Shown: piece by piece, positions 43,008 through 53,404 of the stretch
Numbering within the stretch: the stretch's first letter is position 1
How the letters are laid out: the number at the start of each line of letters is the position of its first letter
DNA from: Acidobacteriota bacterium
GTDB lineage: Bacteria > Acidobacteriota > Blastocatellia > UBA7656
DNA: 64,000 nt
Reading direction: 5' to 3'
Assembly: GCA_016201275.1 (NCBI GenBank)
Contig: JACQDB010000050.1
Location: 34,239-98,238, forward strand
Notes under the pieces: generated by a model
The model's database searches: none
Seen by the model: only the letters and a program-made list of their open reading frames with translations
What the model was told of the DNA's origin: nothing
Position numbers and translations under genes: made by a program

Positions 43008-43271
43008 TTGATGGAGGGAGCAAAAATCCTTACGCCCAGAGTAGCGAGGAATGAGTATGGCAAGCGCATCTATACTCTACTGCCAACGCTTAAATACTAT
43101 TTGCGCTTGCTGCGAAGGCCCGAAGCTTTTGTGGCGGTTTACAGCAAATGTTTGCAAGATGAATTTCAACGCGCCAGCGGCATCAAGAAAGAACACTTGA
43201 AAATCTGGAGCGAGATTTGGAACCCACAGCGACCAAACCTGCCGAGAGTCAATCTCAGGCGCAGCCCTTGA
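43008..43271 (+). pseudogene. chimeric fragment: duplicated nuclease C-terminus
   Basis: An 87-codon frame begins at a TTG three bases after the parE stop. Codons 25-71 (LPTLKYYLRL ... IWSEIW) are the exact duplicate of the nuclease end. The first 24 codons and last 16 (NPQRPNLPRVNLRRSP) come from flanking sequence in an unintended frame, the latter being the TPR gene read in another frame. It is best read as a recombination scar and not a functional gene. Confidence 0.75.
43080..43220 (+). repeat. 141-bp direct repeat, copy 2, abutting the TPR gene
   Basis: Identical to 42199-42339. Copy 2 is joined at 43221 to AACCCACAGCG, the first codons of the TPR gene after its TTG. The TTG itself (43217-43219) belongs to the repeat. 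Confidence 0.97.
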
Positions 43272-44989
43272 CTAGCCAAGCCAACCCTCGATTCATTATC
43301 CCCGGCGATGTCAATGTTCGCATCGAATCGGATGTTCGCCTCTTTGTTGTGATGGCGGCGATCAACATCGCTGGCTTCGATTATGAGGCCAACGGGCAAC
43401 CGTTGTCCGCGCCGCGCACCGCTTTGCGGAAAGACCTGGCGAAAAAAATTGAGGCTTCTTTGAAAGCAAAACTCGCCGCCTATTACCAGGCGCACCGACG
43501 CCCTGGCATTGATGAAGCGGTGGACGCCTCGCGTTATGCGGCGCTCAGTTTTTTGATGACTCAGCCGCCATCGTTTTCGGTCTATGAAAGCGAGCGCAAT
43601 CGTGTGCCGGAAGATTTGCGACCGCTGCTGACCTTCATTCCTCTCTTGCAGGAGTTCTATATTAAAAGCGGCATCAAAGATTTATTGCCCACCTACACCG
43701 CTTTTTCGGATTCTTATGCGGCGCTTTATCGTCGCCCGATTGGTGAAATGATTTATGCGGTGCTGGAGTATTTTCATCTGCGCCCGGAAACCATCATCAA
43801 CATGAAGCCGCTGGTGATTTCGTCAACCGATGTCGGCGGCGGCAAGGTGAAGAAAGAGACGACGGTAGCGCGCACTCGTTCGCGGCAAGTCTATGTCATT
43901 CCCGACCCTTTTTCAGTGATGGGCAGCGCCTTTGCGCGTGACGATTTTCTCAATCAAAAAGATGATTTGCTGTCGCGTCGAGTCGGGGATGATTACATTG
44001 TTTCGATAGGCCCACCGGCCAAGACCACCAATCTGGAAGCGGTGTTGAATACGCTGGTTCGCTTCGTGCTTGATCCTTTGATTGAGCGCAAATTGAAATC
44101 CACCATCGAATACAAAGACCAGATTTTGAAGACCGTGCGAAGCGTGCCGACCGCGAACAAAGAGTTTCAGATCAGCGTCTATCAAGTGGTGCGCGAATCA
44201 TTGGCGCGTGCCGCAGAAGCCCGTTTGAAGCGCCTGCAAGCGCCGCCCAGTCCTCCCCATACGCGCACGGCTGCCGACGATGAAGCGACCTATGAACTGG
44301 CGCAGGATTATTTGCGCGGCGCGGTGCTGGCGTTTCATTTTTATGAGCAGTTGGAAGGACTGGAAAAAGTCGGCATCGGCATAGAAGATTTTTACGACCA
44401 GATGCTGGCGACCCTCAAATTTGACCGCGAAGAAAAACGCGCCAGTGAATTTGAACCGATAGTTGCCAAGGTCTCGCTGGCGAGAAAAAAATCCGGCGAG
44501 GCGAATGCCAATTCAAGCGCCGATCCGTTTGTCGGCACTCTCACCAAAAAGATTCTCGATGCCGATGACTTGATTCGTCAGAAGCTTTTGGTCGAGGCGC
44601 GTGCCATGCTCGAAGAGGTGCTGGCCGTCGAGCCAAACAATGCGCGTGCGCTTTATGGCATGGCGCGAGTGGTCAGTCAATCGCCTAGTGCCGCCGAAGC
44701 CGATCCCAAAGCCGAAGAGAACGACAAGATTCAAGCCCAACATGACCGCTTTCAAACGGCGATCAAACTCTATCGTAAGGCCATCGAAAACGCTTCGCCC
44801 GATTCGGAAAAATGGTTAATGCAATGGAGCTATGTGTATATAGGCCGTATTCTCGATTTTCAGGAATTCCGACAGGATGCGGTCAACGAATACGAGAAAG
44901 CCATTGCTTTAGGCGAGGGCATCCCCAACGGCGCTTACAAAGAAGCGGTTGATGGCAAACAGAAACCTTACGGGCAAAAAGCGCCGTGA
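43217..44989 (+). CDS. TPR-containing protein, N-terminus probably lost
   Basis: The 590-aa reading frame ends with TPR repeats (residues 470-585: DLIRQKLLVEARAMLEEVLAVEPNNARALYGMARVV, then RFQTAIKLYRKAIENASPDSEKWLMQWSYVYIGRILDFQEFRQDAVNEYEKAIALGE). The first part (ANPRFIIPGDVNVRIESDVRLFVVMAAINIAGFDYEANGQPLSAPRTALRKDLAKKIEASLKAKL) is not recognised. The start is a TTG inside the 141-bp repeat, with GGAG six bases upstream. The first residues (EPTATKPAESQSQAQPLTSQ) look like a linker after a signal peptide, so the original secretion signal and start were probably replaced by the insertion. Whether the truncated protein is expressed is open. Confidence 0.75.
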   Translation: MEPTATKPAESQSQAQPLTSQANPRFIIPGDVNVRIESDVRLFVVMAAINIAGFDYEANGQPLSAPRTALRKDLAKKIEASLKAKLAAYYQAHRRPGIDEAVDASRYAALSFLMTQPPSFSVYESERNRVPEDLRPLLTFIPLLQEFYIKSGIKDLLPTYTAFSDSYAALYRRPIGEMIYAVLEYFHLRPETIINMKPLVISSTDVGGGKVKKETTVARTRSRQVYVIPDPFSVMGSAFARDDFLNQKDDLLSRRVGDDYIVSIGPPAKTTNLEAVLNTLVRFVLDPLIERKLKSTIEYKDQILKTVRSVPTANKEFQISVYQVVRESLARAAEARLKRLQAPPSPPHTRTAADDEATYELAQDYLRGAVLAFHFYEQLEGLEKVGIGIEDFYDQMLATLKFDREEKRASEFEPIVAKVSLARKKSGEANANSSADPFVGTLTKKILDADDLIRQKLLVEARAMLEEVLAVEPNNARALYGMARVVSQSPSAAEADPKAEENDKIQAQHDRFQTAIKLYRKAIENASPDSEKWLMQWSYVYIGRILDFQEFRQDAVNEYEKAIALGEGIPNGAYKEAVDGKQKPYGQKAP

Positions 44990-45252: not shown

Positions 45253-45723
45253 ATGTCAGTTAGCTTGCAAGCGAGCGGCTCTGAAGATATTCGTGTAACC
45301 GCAGGAGAACGCCTGGTGTTGCGGGTGCGCGCTTTCGACCCGGCAGGGATCGGCAAAATATTCGTTCAATGTTTTCAGTTCAGTACGGCTAGCACTAATA
45401 AAGTTAAACTGGCCTATGGCCAGTTGCTGATCCCGATTGAAGAGAGTTTCCTGCACGAAGAGTACGAAATTTATATAGATATTCCCATCAATGCCGCCTA
45501 TGGAAAGTGGGGCATTCAAACTATCGAGTTCACCAACGGACGCGGCTACAAAACCTCTTTCTACAGAGGGCAAAGCAAATTCGATAACATTCTTTTCGAT
45601 GTTGTCGCGCCGCCGACGAAAGAAGATGAGTTGTTGAAATTCAACGGCATCGAAATCGCCGGTTGCGTCGAAGGCCGCCCTATGGTCGCCGATAAGCGAG
45701 AAGCATTTCATAAGTCGCCTTAA
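45253..45723 (+). CDS. hypothetical beta-rich protein, 156 aa
   Basis: The start at 45253 has GAGGTGG upstream and gives MSVSLQASGSEDIRVTAGERLVLRVRAFDP; the ORF-track start lies 18 codons earlier. The chain has no signal peptide and alternates strands throughout (GIGKIFVQCFQFSTAST, FLHEEYEIYIDIPINAAYGKWGIQTIEFTNGRGYKTSFYRGQSKFDNILFDVVAP), consistent with an Ig-like or beta-sandwich fold. I do not recognise the family. The 3' end overlaps the convergent FHA-protease gene by 44 nt, so the two transcripts could form antisense RNA. Confidence 0.65.
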   Translation: MSVSLQASGSEDIRVTAGERLVLRVRAFDPAGIGKIFVQCFQFSTASTNKVKLAYGQLLIPIEESFLHEEYEIYIDIPINAAYGKWGIQTIEFTNGRGYKTSFYRGQSKFDNILFDVVAPPTKEDELLKFNGIEIAGCVEGRPMVADKREAFHKSP

Positions 45724-47260
45724 TCGGTACGCCGAAATTGGAACCACCGAAACTCTGCTCGCCGTCTATGGTGGTGAGGATCGCCGAATTGATGGCGATG
45801 ACTTTGCCATCACGGTTAAACATAGGGCTGCCCGAACCGCCTTCGGTAGTTTGCGCGCTGTGGACGATTTTGCCGGGCAGCGCATCGGTGATATTGCCGG
45901 TCGTGGTCAAAGGGCGAATCAAGCCGCGACCGGCCAAGCCTATCGCCACATCTTCCGCAGAGGTGCCGTGCTGCTTCATGATTTCTCTGCGTATGCTCTC
46001 GTCGTCTATGCGTTGTAATAATCCGTCAACGCCGGTCGGATAGCCAAGCAAGACCACCGGCGCACCGATAAGTCCGCTGGGGTCTTCGTTGCTCAAGGGC
46101 AGTTCGGGCAAGGCTGCATCGCCTTGCTCGAAACTGCACAAGGCGATGTCGTAGCGGTCAGAAGTCAGCGCTTCTTTCAAGGCGAACTGTTTTTTGATGG
46201 CTGGAAAAAAGGCTACGAAGCGGTCGAGTTGCGGACGAAAGCCGTTGCCTTGCCCCATAATCAATTGCGCGATGTTATCGGTAGCCCAAGGGCGCACAAT
46301 GTGCCGGTTGGTAGCGATCAAGCCTTGTTTGATGACAAAGCCTGTGCCGGAATAATCAATCTGCACGGGAGGGCCTGCCCCATCAACCGAGGCGAGCAGA
46401 TTGCCGCTCTTATCCACAGGCGTGCCGTTGGCTCCGTCGGCTGATTCATAGCGCAGCAGCTTGCCCGTGCCGCGTTCCGCAAACGTGTAGCTGCCGACAA
46501 TCAGGCAGACGCCCGGCGCATATTGTTCGGTGATTTTCTGGGTGAACTGCCGCGATTGTTCGGTGACATCTTGAAGCTGTTGCAATTTGTCCTGCTGAAT
46601 TTTAATCAGCTCCTGATCTTTTTGTCGCAGCGCGGCGGCCTCTTCGGCCTGTTTCCTGAGCAGTTCGATCTGACTGGTGTTGCGATGCAGGATTAAAAAA
46701 TTCGAGAAGATGATTGCCACTAACGCCAGCACGATAATGGTGAACGCGGCCAAGCCGAAGAGCTTGGCTTTTTTCGGCACCTCAGCCCACAAACTGGCCG
46801 ACAACTCTTTGACAAACAGCGTCGCCGTCAACGGATGAACCGGTTGCGTAGCCGGAGAGGTTTGTGCGGCTTCGGCGACGCGGTTTTGCTGGCGCACTAA
46901 ACTTGCCGTAGAAAAATTTTCCGGCATGATTTGAAACAGAAAACTGGCGCTCGACAAACCTTGTCCGAAGTGCAAGGTGTCGCCATCGCGCAGTTCATAA
47001 CCGGTAGGGCTGTCTTCGGGAACCTCGCCGTTGATGTTGAATTCGAGGAAGTCGCTTTTGTAGCGCGGCATCAACGTCAAGGTGCCATCATCTTCGGAAT
47101 AGATGTCGGCGATGAGTCCGGCAGGGAGACTGCCGCCCTCTTCCGGCACTAGCATCAAGTCGAAATGCTCGTCGCTGCCTATGGTGACGTGCTCCTGTTT
47201 GAAGATTCGGGTTTTGCCTTTTTCCGTGCCGGAAAGATAGACGAACATCAGCCGCGTCAT
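45680..47260 (-). CDS. FHA-domain, membrane-anchored trypsin-like serine protease
   Basis: The 526-aa protein has an N-terminal FHA-like domain (residues 1-115: TEKGKTRIFKQEHVTIGSDEHFDLMLVP, GYELRDGDTLHFGQG), one membrane helix (FGLAAFTIIVLALVAIIFSNFLIL, residues 168-191), a coiled-coil (LRKQAEEAAALRQKDQELIKIQQDKLQQLQDVTEQ) and a HtrA-like trypsin fold. The triad is His320 (ATNRHIV), Asp371 (SDRYDIAL) and Ser476 in EGGSGSP. FHA domains bind phosphothreonine, so a cytoplasmic phospho-signal may control a periplasmic protease. No PDZ domain is present. It is next to signalling genes, but a matching kinase gene is not in the window. A convergent small gene overlaps its 3' end. Confidence 0.85.
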   Translation of the reverse strand: MTRLMFVYLSGTEKGKTRIFKQEHVTIGSDEHFDLMLVPEEGGSLPAGLIADIYSEDDGTLTLMPRYKSDFLEFNINGEVPEDSPTGYELRDGDTLHFGQGLSSASFLFQIMPENFSTASLVRQQNRVAEAAQTSPATQPVHPLTATLFVKELSASLWAEVPKKAKLFGLAAFTIIVLALVAIIFSNFLILHRNTSQIELLRKQAEEAAALRQKDQELIKIQQDKLQQLQDVTEQSRQFTQKITEQYAPGVCLIVGSYTFAERGTGKLLRYESADGANGTPVDKSGNLLASVDGAGPPVQIDYSGTGFVIKQGLIATNRHIVRPWATDNIAQLIMGQGNGFRPQLDRFVAFFPAIKKQFALKEALTSDRYDIALCSFEQGDAALPELPLSNEDPSGLIGAPVVLLGYPTGVDGLLQRIDDESIRREIMKQHGTSAEDVAIGLAGRGLIRPLTTTGNITDALPGKIVHSAQTTEGGSGSPMFNRDGKVIAINSAILTTIDGEQSFGGSNFGVPIKATYEMLLAYRRP

Positions 47261-48792: not shown

Positions 48793-51120
48793 CTATTGCC
48801 GGTTTCGTAGTTCCTTCGCTTTTTGATATTCCTTATTGGCTTCTTCGCGCAAGCCTTGACTGTAGAGTGCGTGGCCGAGTTTCGTGTGCAGCGCATCATC
48901 GAAAGGTCTGGCGGCGATGGCTTGGCGATATGCTTCCGTGGCTTGCGGCCATTTGTTCTGCGCGAAATATTCATCGCCAATAGCGATAAAGATGGCAGCA
49001 TTTTTTGCGTCGAGTGCGGCGGCCTTTTCAAACTCGGCGAGCGCCGCGTCATTCTTTTGTGCGCGATAAAGTAAGCCTAAATTGTAATGCGGCGCAGCGT
49101 AGTTGGCGTCCAACTCGGAAGCATTTTTGAAGGCGCGTTCGGCTTTCCAGTTATCGAGTTTTCCGACATAAACAATGCCCAGAGCGTTCTCCGTCGCCGC
49201 CGTTTTCGCCAGTATTAACAGGGCTTTTTCCGCTTCATCATAAAATTGCAGAGAGATTAATGCGGCTGTGGCGCTCAACTTTTCTAGCCCTGCAATCTCT
49301 GATTTTTCCGGGGTCAGGGTTCTGGCTTTTGCTAAAATCTGTCCGGCGCGTTTGAAATCTTCAACCTTGTCGGCAATGTTATCGCTGCGAACATCGGCGC
49401 TCAAAGTCTCTTTGCCAGCGGTGAATAAAGCTTCGGCTAAACGAGGTTTCAAGCGCGCCGCCGCCGCACTCAAGGCCGCTTGCTGCGTCATCTGTTGATA
49501 AATATCCCAAGCGCTTTGGCCTCGCGGTTCAATTAATCTGCCGCTCGTGATCGCGGCTTCAAAATCCAGCAACAGCGGCGACGGCGCAGGCGCAGAGACA
49601 TTGACCGGAATCGCCGCCGACATATTTTCGGTTGGCGGATTGGCATTGGTCGTTGCTATGACTGCGATAGATGGCGGGACTGGCTGCGGCTTCACAGGCG
49701 CAGGCGCGGCGTTCATCTCTGTTTTGATTCCCGTCGGGCTACCGGCTTTGGTTGCAGGATTCGGCGGCGGCGGTTGACCGTGGCGCGTAGCTGGCAACTT
49801 ATTAGCAGGTGGTTTCGGTGGCTTGAGAGTTGATGCTGCGACATTTTTTCGACTCGGGGCGGGCGCTTTGGCAACCTCAACAGGCGGGGTTTCCGGCGTG
49901 GCAATTTTTACTGCTTCAATTTTATTTGCCGGTGCGAGAGGCGGAGTTGAGGCAGTGGCAGGCGCAGTTTTTTGGGCTTCAGGAGGGGTGGGCGTCAAGG
50001 TTTCCGTAGTGCCTGCGGACGCTATGAGTTGTCTATTCTTCGCGCCTTCCACGACTACAGATTCGGCTTTTGTTGCTGATTGATTTGGCGCATTGGTCGC
50101 GGCTATGGCTGGCGTTGGCTTGGTCGCGCTTGCCTCATTTGGTGTTGCATTGACCGATGGTGCGGCGCTTTGTTGAGCCACGGATGAGGTCGTACTCGAC
50201 TTGGGAGGAGAAGCCATTTGAGCCGCCGATTGGTTGCGCGGTTCAATCGGTGTGCGGCTTGCCGCAAGCGCAGAATTTTTCGTTGCCAGGACAAATTGGG
50301 CGAGCGTAGTGCCGGCCTTCATCGGATGTTGTTTCTTCGAGGTGGTTTTTGAGAGTTGCGTAGAGATGGCCGCAAACAATTCTTCGGCGTTGGTCGCGCC
50401 ATCGGCATTGGTGTCTATGCCGCCGTTGAGCGCTTCCAACAAGCTGTTGGTAAAGGCTCCGTGTGAATTCCACTTCTGGCCTTCACGGGAATATTCGCCG
50501 AAACTGCTTGCCAGCATAGTCGCTATGCCGCCGCGCCACTGCGACAGTTGGTTGAAAGCCGAGGTGAAAATTTTTGTCGGTTGGTCGCCAACGATCTCGG
50601 CATCGAAAAACTCGCGGCGAACTGCATCCGCGATAATCAATATGCGCCCGGCTTTGACGCGACGGCTGATCGCATAACTCAATTCGCGCAGTGATACGCC
50701 GGTCGAGTAGGGCAGTTTGGCGTCCGAATCATAAGCCAGTAAGTAAGCTTCGCCATATTCACTTTCCGTAATTCCATGACCGGAAAAGTAAATCGTCACG
50801 GTGTCGTTTTCGGTTGCCGAACGCGCCAGCCAATCGCCCACCGCTGCCTTGATGGCTTCGGCGGTGGCCTGTTGATTGACCAGCAGACGCACATTGTCGC
50901 CGCATACTTTTTTCATGGCAGCAGCGAAGTCCAGCGCGTCGCGGTCGGCAAATAATAGTTGTTGATTTCCCGGCAGCCGTGGATAACGGGCGATGCCGAT
51001 GACGACGGCAAAAGTTTTTGCGGTGGTCGCATCGCTTTGCGCGAAGCCGTTGCCGACGGTCAGTGCCACCAACAGGGAAATGAAAATGGTAAGGCAGAGG
51101 CAGCGAATAATTTGCGGCAT
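48793..51120 (-). CDS. caspase-fold (C14-like) protein with TPR repeats, catalytic Cys replaced
   Basis: From the ATG at 51120 the 775-aa protein has a signal peptide (CLCLTIFISLLVALTVGNGFAQ). Residues 35-275 are a caspase-like domain: KTFAVVIGIARYP, TVTIYFSGHGITESEYGEAYLLAYD with His115, then ILIIADAVRREF where the usual DAC(R/F) nucleophile position is Val167 (GTT), and SSFGEYSREGQKWNSHGAFTNSLLEALNGG. The Cys is thus missing. A Pro/Ala/Thr-rich linker covers residues 290-530 and TPR repeats close the protein (AERAFKNASELDANYAAPHYNLGLLYRAQKNDAALAEFEKAAALDAKNAAIFIAIGDEYF). It is downstream of STAS and RsbW-like genes in the same direction. Confidence 0.85.
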   Translation of the reverse strand: MPQIIRCLCLTIFISLLVALTVGNGFAQSDATTAKTFAVVIGIARYPRLPGNQQLLFADRDALDFAAAMKKVCGDNVRLLVNQQATAEAIKAAVGDWLARSATENDTVTIYFSGHGITESEYGEAYLLAYDSDAKLPYSTGVSLRELSYAISRRVKAGRILIIADAVRREFFDAEIVGDQPTKIFTSAFNQLSQWRGGIATMLASSFGEYSREGQKWNSHGAFTNSLLEALNGGIDTNADGATNAEELFAAISTQLSKTTSKKQHPMKAGTTLAQFVLATKNSALAASRTPIEPRNQSAAQMASPPKSSTTSSVAQQSAAPSVNATPNEASATKPTPAIAATNAPNQSATKAESVVVEGAKNRQLIASAGTTETLTPTPPEAQKTAPATASTPPLAPANKIEAVKIATPETPPVEVAKAPAPSRKNVAASTLKPPKPPANKLPATRHGQPPPPNPATKAGSPTGIKTEMNAAPAPVKPQPVPPSIAVIATTNANPPTENMSAAIPVNVSAPAPSPLLLDFEAAITSGRLIEPRGQSAWDIYQQMTQQAALSAAAARLKPRLAEALFTAGKETLSADVRSDNIADKVEDFKRAGQILAKARTLTPEKSEIAGLEKLSATAALISLQFYDEAEKALLILAKTAATENALGIVYVGKLDNWKAERAFKNASELDANYAAPHYNLGLLYRAQKNDAALAEFEKAAALDAKNAAIFIAIGDEYFAQNKWPQATEAYRQAIAARPFDDALHTKLGHALYSQGLREEANKEYQKAKELRNRQ

Positions 51121-51196
51121 GATACTTCTCAGAAAAAATGGCGCAGGCTTTCCTGCAAAAGCTCGCGCCATTTGAAACCGAAGCGGATTGACCAAT

Positions 51197-51544
51197 TTAT
51201 TTGAAGCTCGTTAAAGCGGCGTCTTCGCTTTCATGAATTTCAAAAACGGTAAGCAATTTAGTGATTGCCAGCAGGTCTTGAATCTTTTTGGTTAAATTGA
51301 GGAGTTTTAATTGTCCTCCGTTTTTATTGGTGGTCGAATAAGAACTGACCAGTTCGCCGATGCCGGAACTATCCACATAAGAAACGTCGCCGAGGTTGAG
51401 CAGAATTTTTTTCTTACCGTTATCCAGCAGTTGACGCACGGCCTCGCGCAATTGCACGCTGCCTTCGCCAATGGTGACCTTTCCCGAAAGGTCGAGGATG
51501 GTTACCTCGCCGACTTCGCGAGTGGTGATGTTGAGTTGAGCCAT
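51197..51544 (-). CDS. STAS-domain anti-sigma factor antagonist (SpoIIAA/RsbV-like)
   Basis: Small (115 aa) STAS protein of a partner-switching pair. [82 protein letters not shown] contains the conserved DSSG near residue 57, where the phosphorylated Ser resides. It would bind and inhibit the kinase encoded just upstream. The RsbW-like gene ends 21 nt before it and the pseudo-caspase gene starts 76 nt after, so the three probably share one transcript. The regulated sigma factor is not in the window. Confidence 0.93.
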
Positions 51545-51565
51545 TTGAATTCTCCTTTAAAAGAC

Positions 51566-51988
51566 TTATTGATGTGGGCGCTTCCGTTTGGTTAAACGCA
51601 CGACGCTGCCGCCTTCAGGATGCGTGGAACGCCCGACTTCATCCATAAAAGCACGCATATAAAAAATCCCACGGCCACTGGGTTTCAACAGGTTATCGGC
51701 ATCGGTTGGATCCGGCAATTGTTCCAGATCGAAGCCCGCGCCACGGTCGCGCACGAAGATGGATAAGGCTTCGGATTCGATGACGAATTTGACTTCCACC
51801 GATTTGTCCGAGGCGTGTTTGTTGCCGTGAGTAATGGCATTGATGACGGCTTCATGAACGGCCAGTTCAATCCAGTTGGCATCATCTTCTGCAAAACCCA
51901 TTTTGGCGGCAACGCTTTTTACGACAGAACTGACCAGATCAACAAATTCCAGTTTGCTTTCGATGGATAGCTCCAAAGTCTCCGTCAT
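51566..51988 (-). CDS. RsbW/SpoIIAB-like serine-protein kinase, anti-sigma factor
   Basis: GHKL ATPase-type kinase of a partner-switching module, 140 aa. From the ATG at 51988 (AAGGAAGG ten bases upstream; the ORF-track GTG is three codons earlier and too close to that site) it has the N box ANWIELAVHEAVINAITHGNK with the Glu-Asn-type block, the G1 box VRDRGAGFDLEQLPDPTD and the G2 box SGRGIFYMRAFMDEVGRS. It would phosphorylate the STAS partner encoded downstream and may sequester a sigma factor. A divergent aroA lies 78 nt away; the space between could hold promoters for both. Confidence 0.93.
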   Translation of the reverse strand: MTETLELSIESKLEFVDLVSSVVKSVAAKMGFAEDDANWIELAVHEAVINAITHGNKHASDKSVEVKFVIESEALSIFVRDRGAGFDLEQLPDPTDADNLLKPSGRGIFYMRAFMDEVGRSTHPEGGSVVRLTKRKRPHQ

Positions 51989-52066
51989 GTAATGCACGCC
52001 TTCCTTATAATTTTCAAACTAGGGTAGTCATGAAGCGCGTCTTTGTGTAACATAGCCAAAGTTACG

Positions 52067-53404
52067 ATGTCAAGAAACATGAGAATCCGAGGCCCTTCCC
52101 GCGTCACCGGCGCGCTGCACGTACCCGGCGATAAATCCATTTCCCATCGCGTCGCTATGTTAGCATCCATCGCTTACGGCAGCACCACGATCAGTGGATT
52201 TGCCTCAAGCGCCGATTGCCACGCGACGCTCGATTGCGTGCGTCGTTTAGGCATAGATGCCGAAAATGCTAACGGAAAAATTATGATTCACGGTCACGGG
52301 TTGCGCGGCTATCAAGCGCAGGTGCAGCCGGTGAAATTGTTTGTCGGCAACTCTGGCTCGACCATACGTATGCTCGGCGGCATACTCGCCGGTCAACACT
52401 TGGTGTCGGAAGTGGATGGCGATGCCAGCATACGCCGTCGCCCTATGGCGCGCATCGTGGAACCGCTCACCTTGATGGGCGCAACGATCAACGGACGGGA
52501 AGGGAACTTTGCGCCGCTCACCATTCGCGGCTCGCGTTTGCGGGCGATTGATTATCACAGCAAAGTCGCCAGCGCTCAGGTCAAGAGTTGCGTGTTGTTT
52601 GCCGGATTATTTGCCGAGGGCATCACGACGGTCACCGAACCGGCGCAATCGCGCAATCATTCCGAGTTGATGTTGCAGGAATTCGGCGCACGGCTTGAAC
52701 TTGACGACGAAGCGGATGTGCATCGCTATCGTATTGAAGGCGGCACGGAATTAACCGCAGTTGATTATGTGGTGCCGGGTGATGTCTCTTCGGCGGCGTT
52801 TTTCATGGCGGCGGCAACGGTACTGCCGGACTCAAACCTGCGAATTGACGGCGTGAATTTGAACCCTACACGCACGGCCTTCATCGAGGTGTTGAAGGAC
52901 TTGGGCGCGACTATTCAAAGAGAGAATGTCACGACGAAACACTTTGAACCCATAGGCGATTTGCACATCAGCAGCCGCCAATTGAAGAGCGAGAAAGGCG
53001 GGCTGATTTTATCTGGCAACATCATTCCGAACCTCATTGATGAAATTCCCATACTGGCCATCGTCGGTACACAAGTCGAAGGTCGTTTGGAGGTGCGCGA
53101 CGCCAGAGAGCTACGCATCAAAGAGAGCGACCGCATCAAGACCGTCGCCGCAGGCATCCGGGCGATGGGCGGCGAGATCGAAGAATTTGAAGACGGCTTT
53201 GCGGTAACAGGACCACAGCAATTAAGCGGCGGACGCATTGAAACAGCGGGTGACCATCGCATCGCTATGGCCTTCAGCATCGCCGGATTACTTGCCGCAG
53301 GTGAAACCGAAATCATCGGCGCAGATTGTGCCGAAGTCTCTTTTCCAGAATTTTACGAATTACTTTCGACCGTCACCGGCGGCAGTGTAATAGCGGACTC
53401 TTGA
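52067..53404 (+). CDS. aroA: 3-phosphoshikimate 1-carboxyvinyltransferase (EPSP synthase)
   Basis: Penultimate-branch enzyme of the shikimate pathway: adds the enolpyruvyl group of PEP to shikimate 3-phosphate. With the ATG at 52067 it is 445 aa. Blocks: VPGDKSISHRVAMLASIAYGSTTI (substrate-binding Lys and Arg), FVGNSGSTIRMLGGILAGQ, DASIRRRPMARIVEPLTLMGA, SAQVKSCVLFAGLFAEG, and ELRIKESDRIKTVAAGIRAMGGEIEEFEDGF. The short LAGQH sequence after the GSTIRML block resembles class II enzymes, but classification is tentative. The start is uncertain: a second ATG lies four codons on and a TTG eight codons upstream. Another shikimate gene, aroK, is 3.3 kb away. Confidence 0.96.
   Translation: MSRNMRIRGPSRVTGALHVPGDKSISHRVAMLASIAYGSTTISGFASSADCHATLDCVRRLGIDAENANGKIMIHGHGLRGYQAQVQPVKLFVGNSGSTIRMLGGILAGQHLVSEVDGDASIRRRPMARIVEPLTLMGATINGREGNFAPLTIRGSRLRAIDYHSKVASAQVKSCVLFAGLFAEGITTVTEPAQSRNHSELMLQEFGARLELDDEADVHRYRIEGGTELTAVDYVVPGDVSSAAFFMAAATVLPDSNLRIDGVNLNPTRTAFIEVLKDLGATIQRENVTTKHFEPIGDLHISSRQLKSEKGGLILSGNIIPNLIDEIPILAIVGTQVEGRLEVRDARELRIKESDRIKTVAAGIRAMGGEIEEFEDGFAVTGPQQLSGGRIETAGDHRIAMAFSIAGLLAAGETEIIGADCAEVSFPEFYELLSTVTGGSVIADS

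Follow-up and report, generated by a model that had tools for sequence, protein, structure and literature searches.

The locus described here lies in a window of 64,000 nucleotides (the whole stretch of DNA analysed) from a member of the Blastocatellia (Acidobacteriota), and raises the question of whether a partner-switching kinase and antagonist pair and a caspase-fold protein devoid of its catalytic cysteine belong to one signalling system. The original prediction placed an RsbW-like kinase, a STAS antagonist and a secreted caspase-TPR protein in a single operon, coupled to a sigma-factor switch. The three genes do share one direction, on the minus strand, and the predicted gaps of 21 and 76 nt were confirmed by the ORF coordinates (Table 1), the kinase ORF as listed extending to 51997 by the use of an upstream GTG. 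The three domain types named at the outset were likewise recovered with Pfam as HATPase_c_2, STAS and Peptidase_C14 (PF00656; 58.1 bits against a cut-off of 21.4, 1.3e-15), the latter with TPR at the C-terminus.

Table 1. Features of the locus, in window coordinates
Feature	Position	Strand	Basis or remark
aroA (EPSP synthase, named from sequence), divergent from the pair	52043..53404	+	class-wide neighbour of HATPase
RsbW/SpoIIAB-like HATPase_c_2 serine kinase, 140 aa	51569..51988	-	Pfam PF13581 4.7e-29
STAS anti-anti-sigma-type protein, 115 aa, DSSG phospho-acceptor motif	51197..51544	-	Pfam STAS 1.8e-16, TIGR00377
GC-rich hairpin and T-run, terminator- or attenuator-like, between STAS stop and C14-TPR start codon	51131..51179	-	
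Exported (predicted) pseudo-orthocaspase-TPR protein, 775 aa, ATG at 51120	48793..51120	-	Pfam Peptidase_C14 and TPR
Predicted signal peptide, residues 1-28, ...NGFAQ/S (slash, cleavage)	51037..51120	-	read from alignment
C14 caspase-fold domain, residues about 34-290	50251..51021	-	Pfam, alignment, AlphaFold2 model
Pro/Ala-rich linker, residues 291-505, low conservation	49606..50250	-	ortholog identity
TPR half, residues 506-775, all helical	48796..49605	-	Pfam TPR_11 4.3e-14, AlphaFold2

The C14-TPR protein keeps His115 in the motif SGHG, and Val167 occupies the nucleophile position within IADAVRRE; the replacement of the catalytic Cys had thus been read correctly, and alignment with C14 members agrees with it. 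The AlphaFold2 model of the C14 domain was of moderate quality (pLDDT 69, pTM 0.75), and its best PDB structure matches were caspases, metacaspases and MALT1; a PDB search by sequence profile gave no match. The TPR half was modelled confidently, with 14 helices and a pLDDT of 90.7. A signal-peptide-like N-terminus with an Ala-Gln cleavage-like site was read from the alignment in all seven orthologs of the host's family, and the HATPase and STAS proteins carry no signal peptide. A Cys elsewhere in the domain might have served as a stand-in nucleophile, and none is conserved: the sole Cys of the mature caspase domain (in KKVCGDN) is common to just one of the six other orthologs and is therefore no substitute. 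With a C14/p20 fold domain, a substitution in the His-Cys dyad and Val167 in place of the Cys nucleophile of an active C14 peptidase, this protein can be classed as a pseudo-orthocaspase. That kind, told apart from metacaspases by the absence of a p10 domain, is already known; a His-Val dyad is unusual for it.

Each of the six other genomes of the family (seven genomes in five genera) has a full-length ortholog, and these read V, V, V, M, V and I at the nucleophile position, within ADA[VMI]R[RQK][DE]; as the Cys is absent from 7/7, a sequencing error is excluded. His115 is invariant among the seven, in GHG or, in one ortholog, GHA. We gathered C14 domains from 98 genomes of the class. Among the matches listed, 154 aligned rows had both His and Cys, the only complete rows without Cys being those of the family orthologs, and the 148 other distinct C14 domains all had both residues. 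In a FastTree phylogeny of 155 distinct domains, the seven Cys-less orthologs formed one clade (support 1.0), the sisters of which were four C14-TPR paralogs with the motif ADACH[SA]G[KR] (support for the joint clade, 0.996). Within the family, this Cys-bearing sister group was found in G002 and G003 only; the genome of the window, which has four other C14 proteins, did not yield it. Elsewhere in the phylum, the nearest relatives, at 30-34% identity, carry the Cys where this position aligns, and the flanking stretches that were read showed no HATPase or STAS. A query of genome contigs with the alignment returned four named relatives, from Blastocatellia metagenome assemblies, and a single-protein query of the same contigs gave no match. 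These comparisons indicate a single loss of the Cys in descent from a Cys-bearing C14-TPR ancestor rather than a local mutation. Another candidate Cys-less relative, L228, was rejected as a misalignment, its actual reading being IDACHAG. During the survey, dense single-contig clusters of many C14 caspase-domain genes were noticed in two relatives from the class (G056:C105 and G016:C51).

Despite the loss of the Cys, the C14 domain is, as judged from substitution patterns, still under purifying selection. In the closest pair of orthologs (G006/G004), Nei-Gojobori dN/dS was about 0.07 in the C14 domain, 0.11 in the TPR half and 0.26 in the linker, rough values because dS is near saturation; ortholog identities were 43-52%, 56-61% and 15-29%, respectively. 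Of the earlier suggestion that the inactive caspase fold acts as a scaffold, a conserved and selected fold can be upheld; the scaffold role itself we only infer.

The HATPase gene has an ortholog in 96 of the 98 genomes of the class. STAS adjoined HATPase in each of 30 loci read, with aroA divergent beside HATPase in most of them, and the residues of the HATPase N, G1 and G2 boxes, as well as the DSSG motif of STAS, were invariant in 30/30. The gene following STAS varied by family: C14-TPR occurred there only in the host's family, several other families had a homolog of another TPR protein of the window (ORF 43217-44989), and others had unrelated genes. The synteny suggested as a check was found in the host's family, where all seven genomes, from five genera and with proteins about 45% identical, have the three genes in this order; elsewhere in the class the pair stands without the caspase gene. 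The pair beside aroA thus occurs throughout the class and, on gene content, predates the caspase gene next to it. As to other genes of the window, the TPR protein at 43217-44989 (+), about 6 kb from the STAS gene and on the opposite strand, lacks a clear signal peptide, and Pfam calls no domain in the N-terminal half; its homologs in several class families, directly behind the STAS gene, have signal-peptide-like starts. The product of 45680-47260 (-), weakly similar to MarP/HtrA proteases, combines a transmembrane stretch with a trypsin-like domain at its C-terminus; in G002, too, its gene lies near C14-TPR.

By its HATPase_c_2 domain with N, G1 and G2 boxes, the kinase falls among RsbW/SpoIIAB-type kinases, although it scored under both equivalog cut-offs (RsbW, 80.5 against 145; SpoIIAB, 69.4 against 135), and STAS passed the cut-off of TIGR00377 (78.4 bits against 53.45) as an anti-sigma factor antagonist. 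The DSSG serine and the intact boxes liken the pair to RsbV/RsbW and SpoIIAA/SpoIIAB, and are also common to the non-canonical switches HmpUVW of Nostoc and RbaVW of Rhodobacter (PMC8256260). Unlike in RsbV/RsbW and SpoIIAA/SpoIIAB, neither a sigma factor nor a phosphatase is linked to the pair: eight SpoIIE/PP2C phosphatase matches (PF07228) were found in the genome, none of them on the contig of the window. The genome yielded no SigB/F/G sigma factor over the family cut-off, and a 245-aa sigma candidate scored best as FliA/WhiG-like, also below cut-off. To call even the pair by itself a 'sigma-factor switch' is therefore a guess, and partner switches for which no sigma target is known have been described (PMC8256260). 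The proposed coupling of the caspase-fold protein to such a switch found no support, given a pair that is class-wide without the caspase, a hairpin in between, a caspase that is probably exported and the lack of SigB/F/G.

The 76-nt gap contained, in all seven family genomes, a GC-rich hairpin followed by a T-run, with energies from -18.8 to -30.4 kcal/mol and an end 13-22 nt before the ATG of C14-TPR. Five core pairs (GGCGC/GCGCC) were invariant and the loop varied freely; covariation of the outer stem was weak, because the outer stem hardly varies. The T-run was reduced to TTT in three of the seven. A hairpin model (R1) gave 42.9 bits here, against 23.8 at the runner-up among distinct sites of the 6.8 Mb genome (150 of 1,621 candidates scored), and Rfam had no match for the hairpin locus. 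The exact stem motif occurred at one to three places per genome, the C14 locus being among them in 4/7; with so few places, a stereotyped terminator used throughout the genome does not account for the conserved stem. The hairpin looks like a terminator of the HATPase-STAS pair that has been kept in place. Gaps free of terminators, which a three-gene operon calls for, are thus not seen here if the hairpin terminates as its form suggests, and the placing of all three genes in one operon has become doubtful for the third. It should be noted that the hairpin lies so near the ATG that a promoter between the two is hardly possible; the third gene would therefore be served by read-through or by an upstream promoter, so that attenuation may apply. 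As a separate observation, three near-identical palindrome-like elements of 42-43 nt, AAGGGCGCAAT...GCGGTCA...GCGCCCTT, form a small repeat family on different contigs (G000:C83:7426-7468, C101:47765-47806 and C112:2702-2743; L240, L247 and L249).

We consider it most probable (about 0.66) that the locus consists of two adjacent units. One would be the bicistronic HATPase-STAS module, which is old, found throughout the class and oriented divergently to aroA; its kinase presumably phosphorylates the STAS Ser, and the module would end at its own intrinsic terminator. The other, restricted to the host's family, would encode an exported protein in which a flexible Pro/Ala linker joins the inactive caspase fold to helical TPR, and which probably serves as a periplasmic binding scaffold without catalysis; we infer that the two units are independent. 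Against this, the gene order kept over five genera at such protein divergence could reflect a functional link, the hairpins with only TTT may leak and some C14-TPR transcription probably has to pass through the hairpin. A single leaky operon, in which the hairpin as an attenuator lowers or gates expression of the exported protein relative to the switch pair, and this protein serves the partner switch as an output or as an accessory on the envelope side, would fit the order in 7/7 genomes, the conserved hairpin core so close to the ATG with a motif rare elsewhere in the genomes, and the exported TPR proteins of another type that several other families have close behind STAS. We nevertheless regard it as unlikely: the pair is found throughout the class without the caspase gene, in some other families STAS is likewise followed by a strong terminator-like hairpin, beyond which unrelated genes lie, and exported TPR proteins are commonplace in these genomes. 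The missing Shine-Dalgarno sequence before C14-TPR gives no clue and was rejected as a special signal, since 16 of 30 genes in the window lack one likewise. That the conserved RNA hairpin gates the exported dead caspase per partner-switch transcript, and so ties an intracellular switch to an envelope scaffold, is a bolder proposal and an improbable one.

Two further explanations concern the caspase-fold domain itself. By analogy with dead caspase homologs in animals, it might regulate catalytic C14-TPR paralogs; published surveys have suggested this kind of function for inactive caspase homologs (PMC3501461) and the sister clade does consist of Cys-bearing C14-TPR proteins, yet among the seven family genomes these sisters were found only in G002 and G003, and we hold this role to be very improbable. 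We give still less credence to residual hydrolysis by means of another nucleophilic residue: an invariant His115 is unexpected for a useless site, but V, M or I in 7/7 provide no nucleophile and the domain has no conserved Cys elsewhere.

Pseudo-orthocaspases were defined by Klemencic et al. in 2019, with 90% of them in Alphaproteobacteria and Cyanobacteria (PMC6426788); the word 'Acidobacteria' is absent from the text of that paper. The protein described here resembles them in its C14 p20 fold, a dyad that is not intact, active ancestry and TPR C-terminal to the domain, as occurs in the FS-dyad pseudo-orthocaspases of Rhizobiales (PMC6426788). It differs in the loss of the Cys only (His-Val/Met/Ile), in its signal-peptide-like N-terminus and long Pro/Ala linker, and in its Blastocatellia host. 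SyOC, the pseudo-orthocaspase of Synechocystis, has a tested phenotype, its deletion leading to higher oxidative-stress tolerance; it differs in its Tyr-Gly dyad and cyanobacterial origin, and its abstract mentions no partner-switch link (PMC7889975). Caspase-fold genes beside signalling genes, some with sigma factors, were reported among the predicted metacaspase operons of Asplund-Samuelsson et al. (2012), whose bacterial profile was built from dyad-keeping sequences (PMC3501461); unlike in those operons, a hairpin stands between the genes here. Going by these comparisons, what is new is the His-Val/Met/Ile dyad, the host and the predicted export signal.

The locus illustrates that a conserved neighbourhood can mimic a new signalling operon, where a probable terminator and the class-wide age difference say otherwise. 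If it were true after all, a hairpin-gated tie of a kinase-antagonist switch to an envelope scaffold would be an arrangement so far undescribed. For the Blastocatellia, the family provides a clear-cut example from nature of a caspase fold in which a single loss of the nucleophile was followed by continued selection, in a host outside the Alphaproteobacteria and Cyanobacteria, and with Cys-bearing sister proteins at hand for comparison with the Cys-less clade.
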